51,070 bases of DNA from Pukyongia sp. (GTDB taxonomy: Bacteria; Bacteroidota; Bacteroidia; Flavobacteriales; Flavobacteriaceae): assembly GCA_030148705.1 (NCBI GenBank), contig JASBSY010000011.1:1-51070 (forward strand). Reading direction: 5' to 3'. The stretch's first letter is position 1, and every line of letters begins with the position of its first letter. The position numbers and the translations under genes are program-made. Shown here in pieces: positions 39,995 to 51,070 of the stretch. The notes below the pieces were generated by a model that worked only from the letters and a program-made list of their open reading frames with translations, did not search any database and was not told where the DNA came from.

Positions 39995-40076
39995 GCGGGC
40001 GTGGTGGAATTGGTAGACACGTCAGACTTAGGATCTGATGCCGCGAGGTGTGGGAGTTCGAGTCTCCCCGCCCGTA
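39995..40076 (+). tRNA. tRNA-Leu(UAG)
   Basis: The 82-nt gene has acceptor GCGGGCG pairing with CGCCCGT (last pair G-U), D-loop TGGAATTGGTAGACA, anticodon loop CTTAGGA with TAG (reads CUA), the long class II variable arm TGCCGCGAGGTG and T-arm GGGAGTTCGAGTCTCCC. CCA is not encoded. Its 3' end borders the mobile element and is the probable integration site. Confidence 0.95.
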
Positions 40077-40080
40077 CAAA

Positions 40081-40157: not shown

Positions 40158-40290
40158 TTTGCTAATTTCAGGGCGACATTTGTATTAATGTCAAATATTT
40201 CGATTTGTTATTAAACCCTATTAATTTTCTAGTAAAATAATAAATTCTGCTAAATAGCAACCTTATTCCTTCGTAAGGGGAGTTTATTAT

Positions 40291-40444
40291 CATACAATAT
40301 AACCGCAATTTAAACTCGTAAAATACTTCCATAAAAAGACTACGGCATAAAGCCAACGCTCCTTCCATCGCTTATTTATTCCGTTTCCTTTTGAGCGAAG
40401 ATTTTATCTTCCGTTTGGTTCCTGCTTAAATATTGTTTAATCTA
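40291..40444 (+). repeat. Conserved leader, copy A (before parB-like gene)
   Basis: First of three copies of a leader of about 155 bp; the others are at 42347 and 48103. Invariant blocks include ACTCGTAAAATACTT, GACTACGGCATAAAGCCA, CGCTTATTTATTCCGTTTCC and AAATATTGTTTAA. A small hairpin GAAGAT-TTT-ATCTTC lies in the middle-right part. The copy ends 14 nt before the ATG at 40458. It is probably a 5' untranslated or promoter element shared by element genes. Confidence 0.8.
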
Positions 40445-40457
40445 AAATTTAATTATT

Positions 40458-42248
40458 ATGACAACAAAAGCAGTTAAAACCAGAAAGAACGGTAAAGCGA
40501 ATGCTACCGTCAAAAAGAATGTGAGAGAGAAAATGACCCAGATTTCAATTGGGCTTCAAATCCAAAACCTGAACATTGAGAAGGTCATTCCCGACCCGAT
40601 GCAACCCAGAAAGACTTTTAATGAAAAATTTTTAGAAGAGCTTTCCGAAAGCATCAAAAAGCACGGAGTACTTCAACCCATCACGGTACGCAAGTCTGGA
40701 AGTGATCATATCATAGTAATGGGAGAACGTCGCTATCGTGCCAGTAAGTTGGCAGATAAGAAGACTATACCGTGTATCGTGAGAGAATATGAAAACAATG
40801 ACATCTTGGAAATTCAGATTATCGAGAATCTACAGAGACAAGATGTTGAACCCACAGAAGAAGCAGATGCTATCGCTTATTTAAGTGAAAAATACTCTGC
40901 TACGGAAATAGCAAAGCGATTGGGTAGAGGCGATAATTTCATAAGACAACGCTTAAAATTAGCTGGACTCATAGAAGGTTTCAAGAATTTTGTTCGCAAT
41001 GGAGAAATGACAATTTCGCTTGGCGTAGGTGTGGCACTTTTCGAACCGGAAGAACAGCAGATGATGTTGGAAACAATGGGCGAAGATTTCAGTGCCCATC
41101 ATATAAATAGAATGATTAAGGACCAGACCTATGATTTGGATAAAGCACCTTTTGATGTAGAAGACAAAAAACTGGTAGCTAAAGCAGGGTCTTGTATTGA
41201 GTGTCCGTTCAATGCGGCAAATCAAGGTAATTTGTTTGGAGATGGCAAAATGGTCTGTACAAAATCAGCTTGCTACGAGACCAAGAAGAGTAAGTCGTTC
41301 TTGAACTTGATTGAAAAATCAAAGAAAGAGAACATCTTGTTGATTCCTGAAATACGAAAGTATTGGGTAGAGGAAGAAAGTAATCAGATAGTCATTTCCC
41401 AACTGAAAAAGAATGGTTTGAAGGTCTATCTGCTGGACGATGTTGAAATTTTAGAAAAGCCAATTAAGCCTACTTTAGAATCCATCATAGAAGAATATCG
41501 GAATAACGATTATACAGAAGATCAGCTGAATGAAGAACTAAAGGAAGCTATTGAGACCTATACAGAAGAATTGGAAAAATACAATTCAGCTGAAGAAAGT
41601 GGATTTGTAAATGGCATCGTTTTCCATCCTGAATCTTATAGGCACAAAGAAGTCTTCTTGATGATTGTTGAAGAATCTGAAAGTGAAGTGCGTTCTGTAC
41701 CATTATCCAATAGAAAAATGGACGATTGCAGCCCAAATGAACAAATCATCAAAATCAACGAAAGGGAAATCCGGAAGCAGCAAATCGAGAATAATAGACA
41801 ATTTGAAGAAGTTGTTGAAATGATTAGAGAGACCAAATACATCGAAACAAAGAAAACGCTTTCGGTAGATGAAATGGTGGCTTTCTCAATTTCGCTCTAC
41901 GAAAACAATGTGGATTATATGGGCCAACAAAAGTACTTTTCAGGATTGTTAGGCGATACTTCTAAAATGACCAGAATTGAAATTGTTGAAAGTTTCAAAA
42001 AGAATTTCAAAAAGGAAATTTTTCACAAGCTGATACGGTACATACTCACAAAACAAGTTCATTTTGGGGAAAGTAACCATACAAATAGCTTGACTAATAT
42101 TTCTTTTTACAACGCAATGCAGGGTTATTATAAAACCAAAATTGCAGACATCGAAAAGGAATATACCGAAAACAGAGATAAACGTGAAAAGCGTTTGAAA
42201 GAGCGAATAGAAAATCTTGAAAAAGAAATTCAGGAATTGAAAGATTAG
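40458..42248 (+). CDS. Large ParB/RepB/Spo0J-like partition protein
   Basis: The 596-residue protein has a lysine-rich N-terminal tail and a ParB N-terminal domain (about residues 39-130) with 'IMGERRYRAS'-like box II ('VMGERRYRASKLAD') and 'IIENLQRQDVEPTEEA'. A helix-turn-helix region follows ('SATEIAKRLGRGDNFIRQRL'). In the middle is a four-cysteine cluster ('CIECPF...CTKSACY', about residues 240-275) like that of PRTRC-type ParB proteins. The C-terminus is a charged coiled coil. It probably binds centromere-like sites for element maintenance or regulation. No ParA gene is adjacent in the window. It carries leader copy A. Confidence 0.85.
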   Translation: MTTKAVKTRKNGKANATVKKNVREKMTQISIGLQIQNLNIEKVIPDPMQPRKTFNEKFLEELSESIKKHGVLQPITVRKSGSDHIIVMGERRYRASKLADKKTIPCIVREYENNDILEIQIIENLQRQDVEPTEEADAIAYLSEKYSATEIAKRLGRGDNFIRQRLKLAGLIEGFKNFVRNGEMTISLGVGVALFEPEEQQMMLETMGEDFSAHHINRMIKDQTYDLDKAPFDVEDKKLVAKAGSCIECPFNAANQGNLFGDGKMVCTKSACYETKKSKSFLNLIEKSKKENILLIPEIRKYWVEEESNQIVISQLKKNGLKVYLLDDVEILEKPIKPTLESIIEEYRNNDYTEDQLNEELKEAIETYTEELEKYNSAEESGFVNGIVFHPESYRHKEVFLMIVEESESEVRSVPLSNRKMDDCSPNEQIIKINEREIRKQQIENNRQFEEVVEMIRETKYIETKKTLSVDEMVAFSISLYENNVDYMGQQKYFSGLLGDTSKMTRIEIVESFKKNFKKEIFHKLIRYILTKQVHFGESNHTNSLTNISFYNAMQGYYKTKIADIEKEYTENRDKREKRLKERIENLEKEIQELKD

Positions 42249-42259
42249 CTTTCGTTGTC

Positions 42260-42298
42260 AGAAGAGGGGTCAGCATTCGTGTTGGCTCTTCTTTTTTT
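42260..42298 (+). terminator. Rho-independent terminator of the parB-like gene
   Basis: AGAAGAG (42260-42266) pairs with CTCTTCT (42286-42292), with partial inner pairing, followed by seven T residues. Confidence 0.75.
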
Positions 42299-42346
42299 AG
42301 ATAATTTTTAATTGTATAGGTTACTAAAAAGTAAAAAATAATCAAT

Positions 42347-42499
42347 CAATATAACCGCAATTTAAACTCGTAAAATACTTCCATCAAAAGACTACGGCAT
42401 AAAGCCAACGCCTCTTTCTTCGCTTATTTATTCCGTTTCCTTTTGAGCCAAGATTTTATCTTCCGTTTGGGTGCTGCTCAAATATTGTTTAATCTAAAT
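42347..42499 (+). repeat. Conserved leader, copy B (before DUF932 gene)
   Basis: Second copy of the leader seen at 40291, differing at only about a dozen positions. It keeps all the invariant blocks and the AAGAT-TTT-ATCTT hairpin. It ends 9 nt before the ATG at 42509. An open frame runs through it from 42443, but sequence shared with the other leaders shows this part is not coding. Confidence 0.8.
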
Positions 42500-42508
42500 T
42501 CAAAAGTT

Positions 42509-43345
42509 ATGTATTTACAAAATTTACAGCAGGATGAAATCTTCGTTCCATCAGAAATGAAATCCTTAAGAACCCTGACACAGATGGAATCCCGAAGAGG
42601 GCTCGAAAACGTCATCATTTCAAATGGCAAAATTGTCAATGTAGTATCGAACAGCTACGGACACATTCCAAATCAATTGTTCTTCAAGAAAGCTGAAGAA
42701 ATGCTATCCGATGCACAATTGAATTACCACAAAAGAACCATCAATCGAAATGATAGGTCTTTCATTACCGACTTCATCATTGATGATAAAAGCCAATTTT
42801 CAGTCAAGAACAAAGAGGATTTGATATTACCGATGCTTCGGTTCAAGAATTCCTATGACGGAAGCGAAAAGACCTCTGGCCACTTTGGGTTTTACCGAAA
42901 AGTATGTTCGAATGGCCTGCACGTTTCACAGGCTGAAATTGAGTTTTCCATCAAGCACAGTAAGAACAATACCGACCTTATAATGCCAAGGTTGAACAAT
43001 CTCTTCGAGAAATTTCTGGACAATGAATTCTATACGATAACCAAGAAATTCGATAAGATGAAAGAATTTAAAATTATCGATACCAAAGAATTTGTGAGAG
43101 CAATACTTGACAAAACAAAATTGTTTCGGTATGAATGTAGCGATAAGAATAGTGAGCCTTCCAAGAAATCAAGGGAAGTCCTTGAAATATTGAACTACGA
43201 AGCCTTGCTGCTTAATGAAGAGCCTAATCTCTGGTTAGGCTACAATGCGTTCAATGCAGTATTGCACCATACGTTGAAGAAAACCTTTGGCCAACAAGAA
43301 CGGTTAGATAAGAAGCTATTCGATGAAGTTTATGCGATGGCATAG
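42509..43345 (+). CDS. DUF932 (phage/plasmid-like) protein
   Basis: The 278-residue protein has the DUF932 pattern: an N-terminal region with 'SNSYGHIPNQLFFKKAEEML', then 'DLILPMLRFKNSYDGSEKTSGHFGFYRKVCSNGLHVS' (given in part), and a helical C-terminus. DUF932 proteins occur on plasmids, ICEs and phages, but their role is not known. The start at 42509 is fixed by the leader copy B ahead of it. Confidence 0.85.
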   Translation: MYLQNLQQDEIFVPSEMKSLRTLTQMESRRGLENVIISNGKIVNVVSNSYGHIPNQLFFKKAEEMLSDAQLNYHKRTINRNDRSFITDFIIDDKSQFSVKNKEDLILPMLRFKNSYDGSEKTSGHFGFYRKVCSNGLHVSQAEIEFSIKHSKNNTDLIMPRLNNLFEKFLDNEFYTITKKFDKMKEFKIIDTKEFVRAILDKTKLFRYECSDKNSEPSKKSREVLEILNYEALLLNEEPNLWLGYNAFNAVLHHTLKKTFGQQERLDKKLFDEVYAMA

Positions 43346-43360
43346 CATCAATAAAGGTTC

Positions 43361-43386
43361 ATCCAGTACCTCAAACTGGATTTTTT
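43361..43386 (+). terminator. Rho-independent terminator of the DUF932 gene
   Basis: ATCCAGT (43361-43367) and ACTGGAT (43375-43381) form a 7-bp stem with a seven-base loop, followed by T6. Confidence 0.75.
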
Positions 43387-43407
43387 GACTCACTAAACAC
43401 TATAATT

Positions 43408-43481
43408 TCAAATATTTACCACTTTATTGATATAGTGGTAATAATTAGTTTTCAAATATTCGCTACTTTTTTGTATTTTTG
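43408..43481 (+). promoter_or_regulatory. Promoter and operator-like repeats of the AbiE-type operon
   Basis: Inverted repeat TTACCACT (43416-43423) / AGTGGTAA (43434-43441) lies between two direct repeats TTCAAATATT (43408-43417 and 43451-43460). Each direct repeat is followed by a nACTTT half-site. The -7 box TATTTTTG is at 43474-43481, 23 nt before the first ATG. AbiEi antitoxins repress their own promoters through such repeats. Confidence 0.6.
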
Positions 43482-43503
43482 GCAAAGTTTTGATGATTAA
43501 GTT

Positions 43504-44271
43504 ATGCCAAAGATTATAGAAAATAAGCTTATTGAAGCATTTAAGGAACGTGGTTCTTTTGATAGGGACGAACTATTTCAGTTCTATTCACACTTTGAAC
43601 CCGATTTGAAGGAAAGTACTTTTAGTTGGCGAATATATGACCTAAAGAAAAAGGACATTATCAAAACAATTGGACGTGGACTTTATGTTATATCCTATAA
43701 GCCAAAGTATAAGCCAGTACTATCGGATAATGTTCTAAAAATAGCAACTAAAACCAATGAAAGGTTTGAGGAAATCCAATATGCTATATGGGAAAACCAA
43801 TGGCTTAATGAATTTACACAGCATCAAGTGTCCAATCAAATGATTGTGGTGGAAGTGGAAAAGGAATTTACAGAATCACTTTACTATTATCTAAATGATT
43901 CCTTGAAAATGGATTTTTTCTTGAATCCGGATGATAAGGAAATTGAGTTCTACATTTCCGAGAGTACTATTCCCGTGGTCATAAAACGTCTTGTTACCAG
44001 AGCACCGATAAGTAAGCTGAAAAACAAAAAAAATATAGTTCCGGTTGCCACACTTGAAAAAATAATGGTGGACTTGTTTGCCGATGAAAACCTGTACCAT
44101 TTTTACCAAGGTTCTGAACTCATAAACATCTATGAAAAAATACTTGAGCGATACAGCATTAATTTCACAAAGCTCTTTAGTTATGCGAAAAGACGAAAGA
44201 AAGAACAGGAAATCAAGCAATTTATGAATAACCACATACCGAATATTTTAGAGAATATAATCAATGATTGA
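43504..44271 (+). CDS. AbiEi-like antitoxin candidate (DUF6577 type)
   Basis: The 255-residue protein has an N-terminal winged-helix-like domain ('KERGSFDRDELFQFYSHF', 'FSWRIYDLKKKDIIKTIGRGLYVI' given in part) and a C-terminal domain with 'TLEKIMVDLFADENLYHFYQGSELINIY'. This matches the AbiEi/DUF6577 layout: DNA binding for autorepression, plus a toxin-neutralising part. It overlaps the nucleotidyltransferase toxin gene by 8 bp, the usual arrangement of type IV AbiE pairs. Confidence 0.78.
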   Translation: MPKIIENKLIEAFKERGSFDRDELFQFYSHFEPDLKESTFSWRIYDLKKKDIIKTIGRGLYVISYKPKYKPVLSDNVLKIATKTNERFEEIQYAIWENQWLNEFTQHQVSNQMIVVEVEKEFTESLYYYLNDSLKMDFFLNPDDKEIEFYISESTIPVVIKRLVTRAPISKLKNKKNIVPVATLEKIMVDLFADENLYHFYQGSELINIYEKILERYSINFTKLFSYAKRRKKEQEIKQFMNNHIPNILENIIND

Positions 44272-45367
44272 AAACAAAAGCTTCACAAAGGAATGGTTGG
44301 ATATTTTCCGAGCAAAAAAAGAACATAAAGGCATTAATGTGACGATTTTGGAAAAAATGGTTCACGCATTTTCTTTATTAGAACATCTAAAGATAGAAGG
44401 ACTTGATTTTGTTTTTAAAGGTGGCACATCGCTCGTACTCTTACTTGAAGAAGGCAATCGGTTTTCAATCGACATTGATATCGTTTCAAGTATTGAGCGT
44501 GAACCTTTGGAAAAAATTCTTGATACGGTTGTTGCTAACTCACATTTTAAAAGCCACACTTTGAATGAACGTCGAAGTTATAAAGAAGGAGTTCCAAAGG
44601 CACATTATACTTTTGAATTTGATTCGGTTTACAACCCGAACGTTCCAGGAACAATTCTGTTGGATATTCTTTTTGACAGTCCACATTATCCAGAACTTAT
44701 AGAATCTCCAGTTGAGATTTCGTGGCTATCGGTTGATGACCCTATAATATCAATTACCACACCTTCGGTAAATTCCATCTGTGGCGATAAGCTTACTGCT
44801 TTTGCACCAGAGACCATCGGTATTCCATATTATAAGGGCGACCAGTTATTTACAATGGAAATCTGTAAGCAGTTATTCGATTTAGGGAAGTTGTTTGAAA
44901 ACATTACGGATATGTCTATTGTTAAGGCAAGTTTTTCCGCTTTCTCGAAAGCAGAACTATTCTATCGCAGTTCAGATAAAGATTTCGGCAACAGAAACCT
45001 CAAAGAAACAGATGTTCTTTGGGATTCCATAAACACCTGTGCCATCATCGCCAAAAGGGAACGCAACACCACCAAAGAAACAAAAAAGAAGTTTGAGGAA
45101 TTAAACCGTGGTATACGCAGCTTTGGAAGTGCGTTTCTTATGACAGGAAATTTCAGGATAGAAGAAGCCCTTGCAGCTTCGGCCAGAGTAGCCTATTTGA
45201 ATGCAATCCTGTTACAACCAAAAATTACTGAAATCAAATATTACAAAAGACAAGACATAAGCGAACTTACCATTGAAAAAGAAGATTGGGCATTTTTGAA
45301 TAAACTGAAGCGACAGCCAGATAAAAGCATTTTTTATTATTGGTATAAGGCGGTGGAACTATTATAA
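44264..45367 (+). CDS. AbiEii/AbiGii-family nucleotidyltransferase toxin
   Basis: The 367-residue protein has the defining motifs 'FKGGTSLVLL' (Gly53, Gly54, Thr55, Ser56) and 'RFSIDIDIV' (Asp70, Asp72). These are the nucleotide and metal sites of the DNA polymerase beta-like AbiEii toxin family. Relatives transfer nucleotides to RNA targets such as tRNA acceptor ends and cause abortive infection or stasis. It is coupled to the antitoxin gene. Either phage defence or stabilisation of the element would fit. Confidence 0.87.
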   Translation: MIENKSFTKEWLDIFRAKKEHKGINVTILEKMVHAFSLLEHLKIEGLDFVFKGGTSLVLLLEEGNRFSIDIDIVSSIEREPLEKILDTVVANSHFKSHTLNERRSYKEGVPKAHYTFEFDSVYNPNVPGTILLDILFDSPHYPELIESPVEISWLSVDDPIISITTPSVNSICGDKLTAFAPETIGIPYYKGDQLFTMEICKQLFDLGKLFENITDMSIVKASFSAFSKAELFYRSSDKDFGNRNLKETDVLWDSINTCAIIAKRERNTTKETKKKFEELNRGIRSFGSAFLMTGNFRIEEALAASARVAYLNAILLQPKITEIKYYKRQDISELTIEKEDWAFLNKLKRQPDKSIFYYWYKAVELL

Positions 45368-45559
45368 ATATATGTAAATGGAGTTTAAATATATTATAGA
45401 AATTTGCGTGTCAATCTACAGTCCTATTTGTACAAAAATTTCCAATGGTAAATAATTATAATAGAGTTATCTGATTAAATGCTGAAAAGAATATTGAAAT
45501 TGGAATTATTAAGATGAAACCTTAACTTGTGTGAGTAATATTGATGATATAAAATAAGT

Positions 45560-46456
45560 ATGCAATTACCTGATCGAATTCCAAATCATATAAAAGAAAC
45601 AACTTCATTTAAAATATTTTCTAATCATATTCCAGATAATTGGATCATACGAGACGTAACTGAACGTGATTATGGTGTGGACTGTTATGTAGAAATAGTA
45701 AATGACAAAAACCAGTTAACTGGAGACCTAGCTTCAATTCAATTAAAATCTACAGAAGAAATAGATTGGAATTTAGATGATACGCTTTTGTTTTCAAAAG
45801 TAAAAATTTCAACATCAAACTATTGGTTTCGTAGTCCTGTTCCAGTATTTATATTTCTTACAGATAACAAAAAAAAAGAAGCTTATTTTCTTTCTGTAAA
45901 AAACCATATAAGAGATCATTTTTTGAGTTTTGCAAAACAAAAATCTTTTAATTACAGATTTTCCAAGAAAATTGATGTCTTTGATAAAGATTCTGGGCCT
46001 TCATTATTTACATTAAGATATGCTTGGCAAGATCGAAGAGAACGTTTTGAAACGGAAATGAAAATGTTCCTATCTAACCTAAATAATTATCAAAACTTTT
46101 TGGATGAGCATAACCATAGAGACCACCACTTACCTATAGAATCAATAGAGTTGATTTTCTTTGAATCTATGTTTAAAAATTTTGAATTTTTAGCTGACTA
46201 TCTTCTAATTGAAAGTAAGGTGGGGACATTAAAAGAATTAAAAACGAAGAGTAAAAAGGTCTTTAAAGATGACTTTTATGAATTATATGAACACGATTTG
46301 ACTCAAGTTGGAGATTCATTGAGAGAACTATGTAACCAAATCATTAAGGACCTTAAGTCGCTTGTTCAAATAGAAAAGGAATACTGGATGGTCTTAAATA
46401 TGAATCTATTTAATTATGTAAATAATCTCAGCGATGACGGACAACTTTCTTATTAA
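45560..46456 (+). CDS. DUF4365 nuclease-like protein
   Basis: The 298-residue protein starts with a DUF4365 domain of the PD-(D/E)xK fold. Early Glu13 region ('IKETTSF'), 'ERDYGVDCYVEI' (Asp41, Glu45) and 'ASIQLKST' (Gln61, Lys63) give the D...E...QxK active-site pattern. A helical C-terminal region (about 170-298) is unlike any family I know. The AT content is higher than in the chromosome genes. It is followed 17 bp later by the putative HEPN gene, so the two probably work together, plausibly as a defence module. Confidence 0.75.
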   Translation: MQLPDRIPNHIKETTSFKIFSNHIPDNWIIRDVTERDYGVDCYVEIVNDKNQLTGDLASIQLKSTEEIDWNLDDTLLFSKVKISTSNYWFRSPVPVFIFLTDNKKKEAYFLSVKNHIRDHFLSFAKQKSFNYRFSKKIDVFDKDSGPSLFTLRYAWQDRRERFETEMKMFLSNLNNYQNFLDEHNHRDHHLPIESIELIFFESMFKNFEFLADYLLIESKVGTLKELKTKSKKVFKDDFYELYEHDLTQVGDSLRELCNQIIKDLKSLVQIEKEYWMVLNMNLFNYVNNLSDDGQLSY

Positions 46457-46473
46457 TAATCTCAAATAACCAT

Positions 46474-47622
46474 ATGAACTCAGCTGTTAGTGACGTAGAA
46501 GAATTATTTAATGAAGCAAAAGCCGCTAGTGAGTTTGATGTTGTTCTAACTCTTATTAATTACAAGGGTATAAGTTCTCAAAATCTCAATTCCAACTTAC
46601 TGGAGTGGTTTGAGGCAATTCCATTCTATGCTCGGTTATACCGCGATCTGGAGGGAAACGAAAAGGCACGAGTTGCTTTACAGCTTTACTCAACGTTTTT
46701 TGAAAACAGCGATTTCTATAATATGATTGGAAGCATATGCCGGATTACTTTGGGCTATAAGGGATCATCCTATTTGTTTTGGAAAACTCGTAAGTATGAA
46801 AGATTATTGGGTATAGGCGAGAAACAGGACTTCCTAATGGAGTTATATGCAGATTCGAGCAAACAAGGACTTATTGAATTTTATGAACAAATCCATTTCA
46901 AAGAAATAAGAAACACATTCTTTCATTCCGCATATTCATTTGAGAATGGCGAGTACGTTATGCACGATTCTGACCCTATTAATGTAGATGGCGTACAAAG
47001 AAACTCTTTCGAACTATCAACTTTTTTCTATCCAAAAGTCGATGCTGTTCTTGCGGTATTTGAAAAATTTAAAAAGCTCTATTGGGATCTATGGAATAGC
47101 TACAGCGAAGACAAGGAAATAAATGGTTACTTCCCTAATCACTCTAAAATTACCATACTTGGTTCCGAAGACGGATTGAAAGGTTTTAGGATAAAGGATG
47201 CTGTAAAATTTTACGGTAAACCTCACGATTCTGGTATTTGGTATGATGAGCAATATGGTTTTTGGGCTGGACAGAACATTACAATGTATATGGATCGAGT
47301 TGAAGATATCGAGATAGACGATCAACTTAGGCGTTATGAAAACAAAGATGATATTATAAAGAATGATAAAGACTTCTTTAATCTTATTGATAAAATCAGG
47401 GAAAAGAACGATCAGAGAAATATTCGTAGAGCTACGATACTATTACTGAAATACGGCGACGTCCGTATAGCTAAAATGGAAGCAGAAGAAAATCCATATA
47501 AGAAAAAGAGTTTCTCAAAAATAATTTTACCGTATTATCAATTGGCTTTAGAGATAGGTAGCCACATATTTAAAGACGTTGATGAAATTAAAACAACTAT
47601 TGCTGGGTTAGAGAAGCTTTAA
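46474..47622 (+). CDS. Putative HEPN-domain protein
   Basis: A 382-residue protein not matched to a named family. The N-terminal 200 residues are predicted mostly helical and contain 'KEIRNTFFHSAY', i.e. Arg146-Asn147-x3-His151, the Rx4H catalytic motif of HEPN ribonucleases with the usual polar residue after Arg. A second part (about 215-280) has a more beta-like character ('FRIKDAVKFYGKPHDSGIWY'), and the C-terminus is helical. It is paired with the DUF4365 gene. If active it would cut RNA, but the HEPN call rests on one short motif and helical context. Confidence 0.55.
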   Translation: MNSAVSDVEELFNEAKAASEFDVVLTLINYKGISSQNLNSNLLEWFEAIPFYARLYRDLEGNEKARVALQLYSTFFENSDFYNMIGSICRITLGYKGSSYLFWKTRKYERLLGIGEKQDFLMELYADSSKQGLIEFYEQIHFKEIRNTFFHSAYSFENGEYVMHDSDPINVDGVQRNSFELSTFFYPKVDAVLAVFEKFKKLYWDLWNSYSEDKEINGYFPNHSKITILGSEDGLKGFRIKDAVKFYGKPHDSGIWYDEQYGFWAGQNITMYMDRVEDIEIDDQLRRYENKDDIIKNDKDFFNLIDKIREKNDQRNIRRATILLLKYGDVRIAKMEAEENPYKKKSFSKIILPYYQLALEIGSHIFKDVDEIKTTIAGLEKL

Positions 47623-47692
47623 TGATGTGTTGTTTAATCTACACTTTTTATATAACTATTAAAGTGTATAGGAAATAGTAATTGAAAACTCA

Positions 47693-47886
47693 TTCAGCCC
47701 ATTCCCCTACATTCCGCAGAAAAAGCTTCATTTCGGAAAAAGCGCTTCATTACAAAAGTCTTGGACACAACTCTAAAGCTTCCGATTTTCATTTCACTTG
47801 CCCACTCATTCCCGAGAAAATCGGGAAGTGGTCAAACTCCATTTCAACCTACATCTTTAAAGTTAAGTCCGCTTGACATCCTACTT
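47693..47886. repeat. Long non-coding repeat, unit 1
   Basis: Begins TTCAGCCCATTCCCCTACAT and contains a TTTCGGAAAAAGCGCTTC block, GTCTTGGACACAA and a hairpin CCCGA-GAAAA-TCGGG. It ends with CATCTTTAAAGTTAAGTCCG. It is most like unit 3 (48522). Frames that stay open across it (47682-47876 and 47761-48162) follow the repeat and not a protein, so I do not call them genes. Confidence 0.75.
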
Positions 47887-47914
47887 CAAGAGGATAAACA
47901 GTTTTCATATTCCG

Positions 47915-48082
47915 TTCAGCACATTCCCCTGCATTTCGCTAAAAGCTTCATTTCGGGAAAAGAGCTTCTCTGGACAGGTCTTGGACACAATCCCCAATTT
48001 CGACTTTCCATTCCGTTAACCCTTCCGCTATGCTGGAAAGGAACACTACATTCCCTTGCCAAAATCGTGAATCAAGTCCGTT
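47915..48082. repeat. Long non-coding repeat, unit 2
   Basis: Shares the opening TTCAGCACATTCCCCTGCAT, the TTTCGGGAAAAGAGCTTC block and GTCTTGGACACAATCCCCAA. It then has a different second half (CTTTCCATTCCGTTAACCC) shared with unit 4 (48731). It starts 222 bp after unit 1. Confidence 0.75.
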
Positions 48083-48102
48083 TAAAAAAGGAAGTTAATT
48101 AT

Positions 48103-48254
48103 CATACAATATACACGCAAGGTAAACTCGTAAAATACTTTCATCAAAAGACTACGGCATAAAGCCATCGCTTCTTCCCTCGCTTATTTATTCCGTTTCC
48201 TTTTGAGCCAAGATTTTAGCTTCCGTTTGGTTTCTGCTCAAATATTGTTTAACC
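48103..48254 (+). repeat. Conserved leader, copy C (before a 53-codon ORF)
   Basis: Third copy of the leader seen at 40291 and 42347. It has the same invariant blocks and the same distance to an ATG (at 48270). The central hairpin is weakened here (AAGAT-TTT-AGCTT). Confidence 0.8.
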
Positions 48255-48269
48255 AAAAATTTTAACATT

Positions 48270-48431
48270 ATGAAAAATACAGCTGTAAAATCCGACATTT
48301 CATTGCAAGAAACAGAAGCACATTATCAATTAAGTAGTGAAAATTACACTATTGAAAGTGCGGAGAGTCATTTAGCTTACTACAGAGAAAAGCATCCCCT
48401 TTACTATCAAGTACTTTTAAATAATGTTTAA
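48270..48431 (+). CDS. Small protein of 53 residues behind leader copy C
   Basis: The ATG at 48270 opens a 53-codon frame ending in TAA at 48431. The product is polar and acidic to neutral: 'MKNTAVKSDISLQETEAHYQ', then a Tyr-rich second half ('HLAYYREKHPLYYQVLL'). Support comes from the leader, which has the same spacing to the start as in the two larger genes, and from its place between repeat units 2 and 3. No family is recognised. Confidence 0.6.
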   Translation: MKNTAVKSDISLQETEAHYQLSSENYTIESAESHLAYYREKHPLYYQVLLNNV

Positions 48432-48521
48432 TCTGAAAATCAAAAAGAACTTTTTGTAGAATGAGCTAATTACTCACAAACGTAATATTAACCTTTTATC
48501 AAATTCAAACTTCATTACCCG

Positions 48522-48703
48522 TTCAGCACATTCCCCTTACATTTCGCGAAAAGCTGCATTTCGGGAAAAGCGCTTCCCTACTAAAAAGTCTTGGACAAAA
48601 CTCCAAAGATTCCGATTTCCATTACGCTAATCCCGATAAAAATCGGGAAACACTTCATTCCCTATCTCCATCTTTGAAGTTCAGTCCGCTTAAATCCTGC
48701 TCA
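48522..48703. repeat. Long non-coding repeat, unit 3
   Basis: Closest to unit 1: the same opening, GTCTTGGACAAAACTCCAAAG, the hairpin CCCGAT-AAAA-ATCGGG, and the end CATCTTTGAAGTTCAGTCCG. The hairpin arms differ from unit 1 at paired positions yet still pair, which hints at selection on structure. Confidence 0.75.
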
Positions 48704-48730
48704 ATTATTATAATCATATTTCATAATCCG

Positions 48731-48895
48731 TTCAGCACATTCCCCTGCATTTCGCGAAAAACTACATTTCGGGAAAAGAGCTTCCCTGCACAGGTCTTGG
48801 ACACAATCCCCAATTTTAGCTTTCCATTCCGTTAACCCGGTCCGCTGCGCTGGAACGGGACACTTCATTACAGAGCCAAAACTTTGAATAGCGTC
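48731..48895. repeat. Long non-coding repeat, unit 4
   Basis: Closest to unit 2: TTCAGCACATTCCCCTGCAT, GTCTTGGACACAATCCCCAA and CTTTCCATTCCGTTAACCC are shared. It starts 209 bp after unit 3, so pair 3-4 is a copy of pair 1-2. The stretch 48896-49139 that follows holds no clear gene. Confidence 0.75.
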
Positions 48896-49139: not shown

Positions 49140-49313
49140 ATGGGAAGTAAATCTAAAACGAAACTTATGAAATCTTACAAAAACATAAAAAAGGAAGCGG
49201 CACCAAAGAAAACAAAAAAGGAAAACGCTCAAGATATAATAAGTAAATCATTTCAAAAAAATATAAACGCAAACTGTCTGAATGGTTCAGATAGCATTTT
49301 AATTAATCTTTAA
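49140..49313 (+). CDS. Small lysine-rich protein upstream of ssb (doubtful)
   Basis: A 57-codon frame from an ATG at 49140 gives a basic product ('MGSKSKTKLMKSYKNIKKEA', many Lys). The same frame stays open back to a TTG at 49029. It ends 10 bp before the first ssb. Its last codons overlap a 9-bp hairpin (49274-49294, loop TGG). No family is recognised, and it may not be expressed. Confidence 0.35.
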   Translation: MGSKSKTKLMKSYKNIKKEAAPKKTKKENAQDIISKSFQKNINANCLNGSDSILINL

Positions 49314-49323
49314 ATATTTTATT

Positions 49324-49665
49324 ATGAGTACTTTAAAAAATCACGTACAGTTAATCGGAAACGTTGGACAAGAGCCAACCATTACGAACCTTGAAAGCGG
49401 AAAAAAAGTAGCCCGTTTTTCAATCGCAACAAACGAATATTACAAGGATGCCAAAGGAGAAAAGCAAACAGAAACCAATTGGCATACGGTTGTAGCTTGG
49501 GGCAAGACTGTCGAAATCATTGAAAAATATGTTGATAAAGGCAAGGAAGTAGGTGTTACGGGAAAATTGAAATCCCGAAGCTACGAGGATAAAGAGGGTA
49601 TCAAGCGATATGTTACCGAAATCGAAGCAAATGAAATCCTTTTGCTTGGAAGTAAAGACAAGTAA
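49324..49665 (+). CDS. ssb: Single-stranded DNA-binding protein, short form (copy 1)
   Basis: The 113-residue OB-fold protein has 'NHVQLIGNVGQEPTI', 'VARFSIATNEYYKDAKGEKQ' and 'TNWHTVVAWGKTVEIIEKYVDKGKEVGVTGKLKSRSY' (given in part). It stops soon after the fold, without the Gly/Pro-rich linker and acidic DDDIPF-type tip that recruits replication proteins in chromosomal SSB. It probably coats single strands during transfer or replication of the element. It has its own terminator. Confidence 0.92.
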   Translation: MSTLKNHVQLIGNVGQEPTITNLESGKKVARFSIATNEYYKDAKGEKQTETNWHTVVAWGKTVEIIEKYVDKGKEVGVTGKLKSRSYEDKEGIKRYVTEIEANEILLLGSKDK

Positions 49666-49680
49666 TCATTAGAATTATAG

Positions 49681-49714
49681 AGGGCGTTCCTCTCAAACGT
49701 TGCGCCCTTTTTTT
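49681..49714 (+). terminator. Rho-independent terminator after ssb copy 1
   Basis: AGGGCG (49681-49686) and CGCCCT (49703-49708) pair around a 16-base loop with further weak pairing, followed by a run of T. Confidence 0.7.
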
Positions 49715-49739
49715 ATTAATAATCTTTAAAACTTTTATT

Positions 49740-50084
49740 ATGAAAACTATTAAAAATCACGTTCAGTTAATCGGAAACATTGGACAAGACCCAGAAGTCA
49801 CAAATCTTGAAAGCGGCAAAACCGTGGCACAGTTCTCATTGGCTACAAATGAAAACTACAAAGACTCAAAAGGACAGAAGCAATCGGAAACTCATTGGCA
49901 CAGTGTTGTAGCTTGGGGAAAATTGGCTTTAATCGTTGAGAAATACGCAATAGCGGGAAAACAAATTGCCATCGAAGGCAAATTAGCGCAACGCTCTTAT
50001 GAAAACAAAGAAGGAGAAAAACGCTACTATACGGAAGTAGTTGCAAGAGAAATCCTTTTGCTTGGGTCTAAAAATGATAAGTAA
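49740..50084 (+). CDS. ssb: Single-stranded DNA-binding protein, short form (copy 2)
   Basis: The 114-residue protein is a tandem paralogue of the gene at 49324 ('NHVQLIGNIGQDPEVTNLES', 'THWHSVVAWGKLALIVEKYA', ending 'EILLLGSKNDK'). It also lacks the acidic tip. The 25 bp before the two starts are alike (AATCTTTAAA-n-TTTTATTATG), so the whole unit was duplicated. SSB acts as a tetramer; hetero-tetramers of the two copies are possible. Confidence 0.92.
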   Translation: MKTIKNHVQLIGNIGQDPEVTNLESGKTVAQFSLATNENYKDSKGQKQSETHWHSVVAWGKLALIVEKYAIAGKQIAIEGKLAQRSYENKEGEKRYYTEVVAREILLLGSKNDK

Positions 50085-50167: not shown

Positions 50168-50548
50168 ATGAAAGCACAAGTTAACGAAATAAAAGAAGGA
50201 TTGCAACATTTTCACGGTACGGAAATGTTCTATCAAATCCCATTATTAAGAACACGTTTTACGGACGGACTAAAATATCTTGCTAATGTAGCAGATTGTT
50301 TTTGGCTCATTACGGACACTTCCGTAATTGCAAAAAGTCTGATGAACCGAAGCGAATTTATAACCATCGATTTTAAAAGATTGTCCGAAGATAAACAGGA
50401 TATTACTGGTTATGAAGCTGAAATTATTTATACCGATGGCAACGACAATATTTTGGAAAAACACGGCTATCGGGCAACCGATTTTCCACTCGATGAACTG
50501 CGCTTATTTTTTGTAAATGATACGCTGATGTTACCAAGCGAATATTAA
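50168..50548 (+). CDS. DUF6876 family protein
   Basis: The 126-residue protein contains 'LQHFHGTEMFYQIPLLRTRFTDGLKYLANVADCFWLI' (given in part), the hallmark of DUF6876, found on plasmids and integrative elements. The function is unknown. It is followed 11 bp later by another small element gene and belongs to the accessory block next to the ssb genes. Confidence 0.82.
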   Translation: MKAQVNEIKEGLQHFHGTEMFYQIPLLRTRFTDGLKYLANVADCFWLITDTSVIAKSLMNRSEFITIDFKRLSEDKQDITGYEAEIIYTDGNDNILEKHGYRATDFPLDELRLFFVNDTLMLPSEY

Positions 50549-50559
50549 AAATTAAGGCT

Positions 50560-50757
50560 ATGGTTTATCTCAATTTTACAGACTTGAGCGAGGAGGCTCA
50601 AAACCGACTTTTAGAGGATTCTAAAAAAGACGTGGAACGAAAATTTGGCGATGATATTCGCAAATATGTAAGAGAAAATTACACCTGTTTTGAAACGATG
50701 ATAGAGGAAGAAGCAATGCGAAATTTATATTCCTATACATTTGTATTCAACATCTAA
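50560..50757 (+). CDS. Small acidic helical protein of the element
   Basis: A 65-residue product ('MVYLNFTDLSEEAQNRLLED' then charged helices) that I cannot assign. Its length, its tight spacing to the DUF6876 gene and the strong terminator after it support a real gene. It may be an accessory of the same operon. Confidence 0.6.
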   Translation: MVYLNFTDLSEEAQNRLLEDSKKDVERKFGDDIRKYVRENYTCFETMIEEEAMRNLYSYTFVFNI

Positions 50758-50779
50758 TTTTCTAAACTTTATAATCAAG

Positions 50780-50805
50780 CACCTCTAAAATTTAGAGGTG
50801 TTTTT
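50780..50805 (+). terminator. Rho-independent terminator of the DUF6876 operon
   Basis: CACCTCTAAA (50780-50789) and TTTAGAGGTG (50791-50800) make a perfect 10-bp stem with a single-base nominal loop, followed by TTTTT. Confidence 0.85.
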
Positions 50806-50882
50806 GTATGCGATTAGTATATAGTCAAGAAAAAAAACGTATCTTTATTTTGCTGAAATTCAGCATTCAAATTTAAGTAGGG

Positions 50883-51068
50883 TTATCCACTTTTCGACTT
50901 TCGCCGATAACCGTAGACATCGAAAAATAACATATCGGAAAATCATTTTCCCTGAAAATGGCAATCGGCTTTTTAGCCGGATTGTATGGATTTTTGTCAC
51001 GCTTGCGCGTGACGAAAAGGAATAGCAAGAGGGTAACACGCTGCGCGATGTTTCGGATTCCTTTTCGT
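50883..51068. other. Hairpin-dense non-coding region, candidate oriT or oriV
   Basis: The last 300 bp hold no gene but many dyads: CATTTTC/GAAAATG (50944-50960), CAATCGGCT/AGCCGGATTG with one bulge (50962-50984), GTCACGC/GCGTGAC (50996-51013), and a perfect 12-bp inverted repeat ACGAAAAGGAAT/ATTCCTTTTCGT (51012-51023 and 51057-51068). A DnaA-box-like TTATCCACT lies at 50883-50891 (8 of 9 to the consensus). Dense dyads without genes in a mobile element suggest a nick or replication site. Confidence 0.45.
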
Positions 51069-51070
51069 TT

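Follow-up and report, generated by a model that had tools for sequence, protein, structure and literature searches.

Why should one stretch of non-coding DNA stand, nearly unchanged, in front of three unrelated genes? The question is raised by a window of 51,070 nucleotides (nt) from Pukyongia sp., a member of the Flavobacteriaceae (assembly GCA_030148705.1, contig JASBSY010000011.1; the window is the whole stretch of DNA analysed here), in which a leader of about 170 bp precedes a ParB-like gene, a DUF932 gene and an open reading frame (ORF) of 53 amino acids (aa). The initial annotation took the leader for a shared regulatory element and considered a structured 5' untranslated region, a binding site or a common promoter. 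A few plasmids of Proteobacteria have well-established single-stranded promoters. We propose that each copy of the leader is probably a promoter of this Frpo-like kind, which would act on single-stranded DNA (ssDNA) while a conjugative element enters its recipient. The proposal is built on a hairpin maintained by compensatory changes and on sigma factor boxes that lie on the strand opposite to the genes.

A conserved hairpin ending on the start codon

The three copies, with their covariance-model bounds, and the genes behind them are as follows.

40289..40460, plus strand, hairpin element copy 1, preceding the ParB-like gene
42341..42511, plus strand, hairpin element copy 2, preceding the DUF932 gene
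48101..48272, plus strand, hairpin element copy 3, preceding the 53-aa gene
40458..42248, plus strand, ParB-like protein of 596 aa (Pfam ParB_N and HTH_ParB)
42509..43345, plus strand, DUF932 protein of 278 aa (Pfam)
48270..48431, plus strand, 53-aa protein that recurs behind the element in relatives

The initial annotation had reported three near-identical copies, each in front of an ATG, and this holds with slightly longer model bounds: all three end on the ATG of their own gene (40458 for ParB, 42509 for DUF932 and 48270 for the 53-aa ORF). It was likewise right that the downstream genes are mutually unrelated, as Pfam assigns ParB_N to the first, DUF932 to the second and nothing to the third, the 53-aa protein having zero matches in Pfam or NCBIfam. 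Within the conserved block copies 2 and 3 share 94% and 91% identity with copy 1 by blastn, and over 207 nt the values are 79% and 86%. A fourth copy is absent from the 2.9-Mb draft genome of 24 contigs by both blastn and covariance model, the next-best matches having E values of 0.2 and 2, respectively, against 1e-35 or less for the three copies.

Related elements are common in the family. With two candidates scored per genome, copy 1 finds a blastn match at E<=0.001 in 64 of 299 Flavobacteriaceae genomes, its own included; the matches are strong (E<=1e-9) in 51 of the 299, and the other 13 genomes hold short matches only, at E 7e-6 or weaker, which are possibly due to chance. An iterated profile collected 100 copies from the window and 60 relative loci. 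In 93 of them the last three model positions hold an ATG that opens an ORF of at least 35 aa, a figure to be read with the fact that the profile seed ended with the ATG, so that the last columns include it; in the remaining seven the ATG is shifted, distant or absent. The genes behind the copies in relatives encode ParB, DUF932, the 53-aa protein, a 135-aa protein and others, which bears out the earlier suggestion of a regulon and extends it to further gene families.

Two of the 100 profile matches were too short for alignment, leaving 98, and the removal of 65 redundant or truncated rows gave a covariation set of 33 non-redundant copies. One long imperfect hairpin spans the leader. It has 39 pairs, 18 of which show a change of both partners in at least one sequence, compared with a mean of 6.8 in shuffles, none of which reached 18 in 500 trials; the hairpin cells are paired in 89.8% of cases as against at most 50% when the arms are slid. 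The covariance model and the search for compensatory changes that had been called for thus support a shared regulatory element with a conserved structure. From the outside inwards the helices are ACAATAT/ATATTGT, which closes the hairpin, TAAAC/GTTTG, TAAAATACTT/AAGATTTTA, TCAAAAG/CTTTTGA, ACGG/CCGT and ATAAA/TTTAT, with a weak helix of two pairs (47.6% paired) between the closing helix and TAAAC. The inner helices are recovered independently by RNAalifold. In a test in which homologous rows compete with one another, the closing helix had its own partner as its best match in 19 of 45 rows. In relatives TCAAAAG/CTTTTGA is seen by eye to be replaced by GGAAAAGG/CCTTTCC, CAAGG/CCTTG or TTCAAATTT/AAATTTGA; in copy 1 an A at 40333 costs this helix one pair. 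In copy 3 the main parts lie at the following positions.

48106..48112, plus strand, 5' arm ACAATAT of the closing helix (partner 48242-48248)
48131..48140, plus strand, helix TAAAATACTT (partner AAGATTTTA at 48210-48218), the best covarying helix
48144..48150, plus strand, helix TCAAAAG (partner 48200-48206)
48152..48197, plus strand, core CTACGGCATAAA..TTTATTCCGTT with helices ACGG/CCGT and ATAAA/TTTAT, common to class Bacteroidia

Among the smaller structures proposed earlier, the long-range pair TCAAAAG/CTTTTGA is retained as one of these helices; AAGAT-TTT-ATCTT covaries no more than shuffles do and GGC-ATAAA-GCC has zero pairs changed on both sides, and both were rejected as covarying hairpins. 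Recent duplication as the sole explanation is ruled out, since diverged copies, down to about 75% identity, keep both the structure and the place before the ATG.

The core reaches well beyond the family. Among 395 genomes sampled from the phylum the covariance model matches 20, some of them from other families of the class, and the core pattern occurs in 19 of 395 genomes of the class, the reversed control pattern yielding none among the matches listed; a pattern one base longer occurs in 16 of the 395 genomes of the phylum sample, all of them of class Bacteroidia. In a collection of 84,980 species the exact core CTACGGCATAAA-N14..44-TTTATTCCGTT is found in at least 119 stretches, and among the 80 matches listed 75 carry Bacteroidota names, the other five (metagenome-assembled or unclassified) carrying different ones. 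A set of 2.9 million viral contigs holds 12 stretches with the core pattern, on 10 contigs. A blastn comparison of the leader with phages gave no useful match, and of two distant relatives compared with plasmids by blastn one gave a 25-nt chance match and the other none. Judged from its sequence distribution, the element is old and widespread, with a shorter core that is shared across class Bacteroidia. At loci L134 and L180 the core hairpin has a long closing arm, CGCTTAGGC/GCCTAAGCG, and lies about 250 nt before similar ORFs, that of L134 being a DUF6266 gene.

Promoter boxes on the template strand

In one flavobacterium the sigma-A -7 box spans -12 to -5 with the consensus TAnnTTTG, and a further promoter class has TAnnTTGY in that position (PMC9723704, in the part used here). 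Read against these consensus sequences, all three copies carry a -7 box on the minus strand, near their outer end.

40305..40312, minus strand, -7 box of copy 1, TAAATTGC, fitting TAnnTTGY
42357..42364, minus strand, -7 box of copy 2, TAAATTGC
48117..48124, minus strand, -7 box of copy 3, TACCTTGC

The box is conserved far above chance. A set of 58 diverged sites (less than 80% identical upstream, drawn from 142 distinct sites of which 84 were dropped as redundant) was examined over the 60 nt before the core: 31 have a minus-strand TAnnTTTG there, compared with 3.9 in dinucleotide shuffles (maximum 9 in 100 shuffles), and 45 have either variant, compared with 8.1 (maximum 15 in 200 shuffles). 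In a larger set of 98 sites, left from 207 distinct ones after 109 redundant sites were dropped, 70 have a minus-strand box. On the plus strand of the same 60 nt the three tests found 0, 1 and 2 boxes, where chance predicts 0.7 and 1.8 in the first two. Copies with the TCAAAAG helix also show a -33-like TTTTG (TCAAAAG read as TTTTGA) on the minus strand, 20 nt from the -7 box towards the loop.

The box occupies a mismatched stretch flanked by the closing helix and the helix that follows it. When the minus-strand DNA is folded, the box has less pairing than the remainder of its own arm in 39 of 45 cases and less than AT-matched arm stretches in 33 of 45 (unpaired fraction 0.54 as against 0.35). 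At its second position, column pair 25-139, 29 of 33 copies have T.G, which is A.C on the minus strand. Such a mismatched -7 region would ease melting.

The orientation of the boxes suggests a single-stranded template, because in duplex DNA they point away from the gene, but a folded minus strand would aim them into it; a hairpin promoter for the gene behind needs its box on the template strand. During transfer the minus strand, which is the template of the genes, would arrive as ssDNA and fold into the hairpin, its 3' arm serving as the non-template strand with the boxes and its 5' arm as the template that runs into the gene. The host RNA polymerase with its main sigma factor would bind the rebuilt -33/-7 promoter, whose -7 region, being mismatched, would already be partly open, and transcription would start near the closing helix. 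From the spacing of box and start (PMC9723704, in the part used here) we expect a start about 5 nt past the box, opposite AAATATTG, which falls near 40429, 42480 and 48240, about 30 nt before each ATG. Applied to the fold, the same spacing gives the following windows for two of the copies.

40428..40430, plus strand, expected start of transcription for copy 1, some 28-30 nt upstream of the ATG
48239..48241, plus strand, expected start of transcription for copy 3, some 30 nt upstream of the ATG

A start so near the 3' end of the element would therefore leave most of it outside the messenger RNA (mRNA). The recipient would make ParB, DUF932 and the 53-aa protein while the second strand was still lacking; once the DNA is double stranded the hairpin would be lost, the boxes would face away from the gene and expression would be switched off.

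The same hairpin could be that of a structured RNA leader, the 5' untranslated region of the initial annotation, in which the plus strand is transcribed from upstream and an mRNA hairpin of about 150 nt, bound by an element protein or a ligand, controls translation or termination. A covarying hairpin that ends just before an ATG, an RNA fold with a z-score of -2.6 and the conserved T.G at pair 25-139, which in RNA is U.G, all agree with such a leader. It gives no reason, however, for a conserved box on the minus strand, and a promoter upstream is hard to find. In 71 non-redundant Flavobacteriaceae stretches before the leader (29 of 100 dropped), searched for main-sigma boxes only, the plus strand has the strict box within 60 nt in 0 of 71 (chance 3.6), either variant in 1 of 71 (chance 5.9), and either variant within 150 nt in 7 of 71 as against 15.0 by chance; alternative sigma factors or distant promoters could still serve. 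A 6S-like decoy RNA was also considered and dropped, the plus strand of the 60 nt before the core lacking a -7 box beyond chance.

Nor are G.U mismatches favoured. Outside pair 25-139 there are 14 G.T and 19 A.C cells, compared with 13 and 4 in the transfer RNA (tRNA) acceptor stems of the same loci, a small control of 31 unique tRNAs. The share of G.T among isolated mismatches (17/158) is the same as in arms swapped between loci (57/516). The A.C excess in the wobble tests has p 0.03 at a looser setting, is not significant at stricter ones and reaches p 0.0016 in a larger set; the test is used solely to state the absence of a G.U excess, because swapped arms give the same ratio. No covariance model of Rfam release 15 matches the window or 13 relative loci, which rules out a known Rfam RNA, and we found no published description of the element as a structured RNA in a literature search whose scope excluded subscription papers and preprints. 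The missing G.U excess and the missing upstream box are moderate evidence against a structured RNA, and with the -7 box on the other strand they tell against the 5' untranslated region of the initial annotation, which we now consider unlikely.

A promoter or operator cassette working in double-stranded DNA was also considered, either as a divergent minus-strand promoter or as a set of sites for a regulator of the element such as the ParB-like protein. In its favour, the -7 box on the minus strand makes a good sigma box, ParB-like proteins bind DNA, and the copies are dispersed. Yet a duplex cassette has no need for arms that remain complementary as their bases change; a transcript from a divergent promoter would extend over the upstream stretch and away from the conserved ATG, and core copies also stand before RadC or single-strand-binding protein (SSB) genes in other families. 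We regard a duplex cassette as quite improbable.

The mobile element around the copies

The surroundings of the three copies in the window are as follows.

39995..40077, plus strand, tRNA-Leu adjoining the left end of the element, whose genes start about 380 nt further on
43504..45367, plus strand, toxin-antitoxin-like gene pair DUF6577 and AbiEii (Pfam), placed between copies 2 and 3
49324..50084, plus strand, two tandem SSB genes (Pfam for the first gene; repeat D2)
50168..50757, plus strand, DUF6876 gene and 65-aa gene (Pfam)
50761..51070, strand not applicable, first part of an oriT-like conserved non-coding region (about 430 nt in relatives), cut by the contig end

The tRNA-Leu gene is the probable attachment site, and from 40458 to the contig end all non-overlapping ORFs longer than 66 aa lie on the plus strand. 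Relatives supply what follows. Their usual order is leader genes, SSB, DUF6876, the 65-aa gene, about 430 nt of non-coding DNA, a BfmA/BtgA-type gene, a MobB relaxase and a MobC/VirD4-like coupling protein. The non-coding block, conserved with its inverted repeats in 34 loci including the window, is likely to be the origin of transfer (oriT). With the protein of locus L045 as the reference, a MobB/DUF5712 match was found in 33 of the 60 relative loci and the window, downstream of the leader and on its strand in 33 of 33, although these loci include near-identical elements and the counts are not independent. A coupling-protein match follows MobB in 32 of the 33, locus L041 being the exception, and at L089 an SSB match stands before the leader. 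In L045 itself the BfmA/BtgA and MobB proteins score above the NCBIfam cut-offs, and the coupling protein below NCBIfam and above the Pfam cut-off. The Pfam relaxase PF03432 occurs in 7 of 20 genomes, none of them beside the elements, the relaxase here being of the MobB/DUF5712 kind.

Elsewhere the genes that follow the core hairpin encode RadC, SSB, ArdC, a C5 methyltransferase, a protein of helicase-methylase type, DUF6876, DUF6943 and DUF6934; by the rule used, 9 of 140 core sites lack an ORF, and some of the ORFs picked may be spurious. SSB, methyltransferase and anti-restriction genes are leading-region genes of plasmids in the part of PMC11541004 drawn on here. That the template strand is also the transferred strand would fit both the strand of the boxes and the direction of the genes, the polarity of transfer being deduced from gene order.

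Several observations weigh against a promoter on incoming ssDNA. The exact -7 box is missing in the 60 nt tested from 28 of the 98 diverged copies, a -33 match is clear in part of the copies only, and the distance from box to core varies between 34 and 58 nt. The conserved T.G at pair 25-139 could equally be the U.G of an RNA, the A.C excess is matched by swapped arms (57 G.T to 125 A.C), and the fold energy is mildly better than that of shuffles, with z-scores of -2.6 as RNA and -1.5 as minus-strand DNA. As regards transfer, the window ends before the relaxase genes, which are seen in relatives. The contexts of loci L163, L133 and L144 are not clearly conjugative, and at L190 ArdC is encoded downstream of the coupling protein.

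The window and its relatives show some further features. Directly before copy 2, at about 42261-42298, a terminator-like hairpin with a T-run was noted by eye. Between the AbiE-like pair and copy 3, at 45560-47622, lie adjacent genes of 298 and 382 aa with no NCBIfam match, which are possibly defence or cargo genes. Interspersed repeats at 47667-48022 and 48496-48838, with units of 145, 50, 45 and 42 nt in two to four copies (for example CATTCCCCT..CATTTCGGGAAAAG..CTTGGACACAA), flank copy 3 and the 53-aa gene, and the tandem SSB genes are duplicated (49297-49921) along with about 27 nt of upstream DNA. At L163:4480-6527 the core hairpin precedes a C5 DNA methyltransferase gene in a setting that looks phage-like rather than conjugative, the neighbour of which is presumably a thymidylate synthase gene. 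A conserved 77-aa ORF stands behind the core hairpin in Chitinophagaceae-type loci (L133:1983-2213, L137, where it is cut short, L142, L144 and L147); its L133 copy has no Pfam match.

Likeness to known elements and the biology of Bacteroidota

The closest functional likeness is to the Frpo/ssi elements of F, ColIb-P9 and other plasmids, which are described in the parts of PMC9849209 and PMC11541004 used here as non-coding hairpins whose single-stranded form rebuilds promoter boxes, and which occur as near-identical copies before different leading-region genes that mostly face one way. In F, Frpo1 and Frpo2 are 92% identical and lie about 5 kb apart with the toxin-antitoxin pair flmAB between them (PMC9849209, same part), much as the DUF6577 and AbiEii pair lies between copies 2 and 3. 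The corresponding features are present in silico: the hairpin of the leader would rebuild boxes for the main sigma factor, and several copies stand before genes of leading-region type that face one way, in what would be the leading region. Unlike Frpo, the leader has boxes of the Bacteroidota -33/-7 type rather than -35/-10, and the mobile element that bears it adjoins a tRNA-Leu and has transfer genes of MobB type in relatives; the leader has no blastn match in 72,556 plasmid records, a comparison in which the Frpo sequences themselves were not aligned. The likeness is thus functional with no sequence relation seen, and we therefore do not file the element as a member of Frpo.

Frpo reportedly is both a promoter and a source of primers, as the title of a 1997 paper by Masai and Arai has it, and the leader might likewise be chiefly a single-strand initiation site, at which the folded transferred strand primes second-strand synthesis by way of RNA polymerase or a primase. 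It would suit this function that several copies share one strand. Priming alone would not require an ATG at the end of the copy, as found in 93 of 100, nor so many different genes behind it, and as the main role we hold it to be very improbable; it is compatible with a promoter on ssDNA, and both can hold.

The nearest repeated establishment leader is EGeRS1 of the pLS20-family plasmids, a repeated, structured non-coding sequence before several establishment genes including ardC; unlike the present element it is 400-600 bp long, GC-rich and found in Firmicutes, and its authors thought an ssDNA promoter highly unlikely in view of the absence of a promoter in the fold and the identity of the nicked strand (PMC8708921, in the part used here). 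The STAXI motif (RF01728) is similarly structured and close to SSB, antirestriction and integrase genes, and its authors raised a role in single-stranded DNA; it differs in consisting of repeated pseudoknots with UUCG loops in Enterobacteriales, for which an RNA was favoured (PMC2864571, as far as the part used here goes). The radC RNA motif (RF01754) is named for radC genes, which also follow the core hairpin in other families; it is listed for Proteobacteria, and the RadC-type loci scanned here have no Rfam match.

An ssDNA promoter in Bacteroidota is apparently undescribed so far. Literature searches that combined single-stranded promoters or Frpo with Bacteroidetes, Bacteroides or CTnDOT found none, their scope leaving out subscription papers and preprints. 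A large survey relied on known Frpo/ssi sequences and on -35/-10 consensus boxes in the part of PMC11541004 used here, and 'Bacteroid' is absent from its main text; given this design, a Bacteroidota version with TAnnTTTG-type boxes would probably be missed.

On balance we lean towards a wider proposal, taken as a whole: that conjugative elements of Bacteroidota carry their own, independently evolved class of ssDNA promoter, a hairpin on the ACTACGGCATAAA/TTTATTCCGTT core in which the host's -7 box lies within mismatched, partly open DNA and the closing helix serves as downstream duplex; that it would switch on ParB, DUF932, SSB, RadC, ArdC and methyltransferase genes upon entry of the strand; and that throughout the class it would mark where the leading regions of such elements lie. 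If this is true, it explains how conjugative elements survive their entry in Bacteroidota and provides a sequence tag for their leading regions. It predicts that DUF932, DUF6876, DUF6943 and the 53-aa protein act at establishment, where they may be anti-defence genes, and it would offer a natural and diverse test set for an RNA polymerase that reads a partly melted hairpin.

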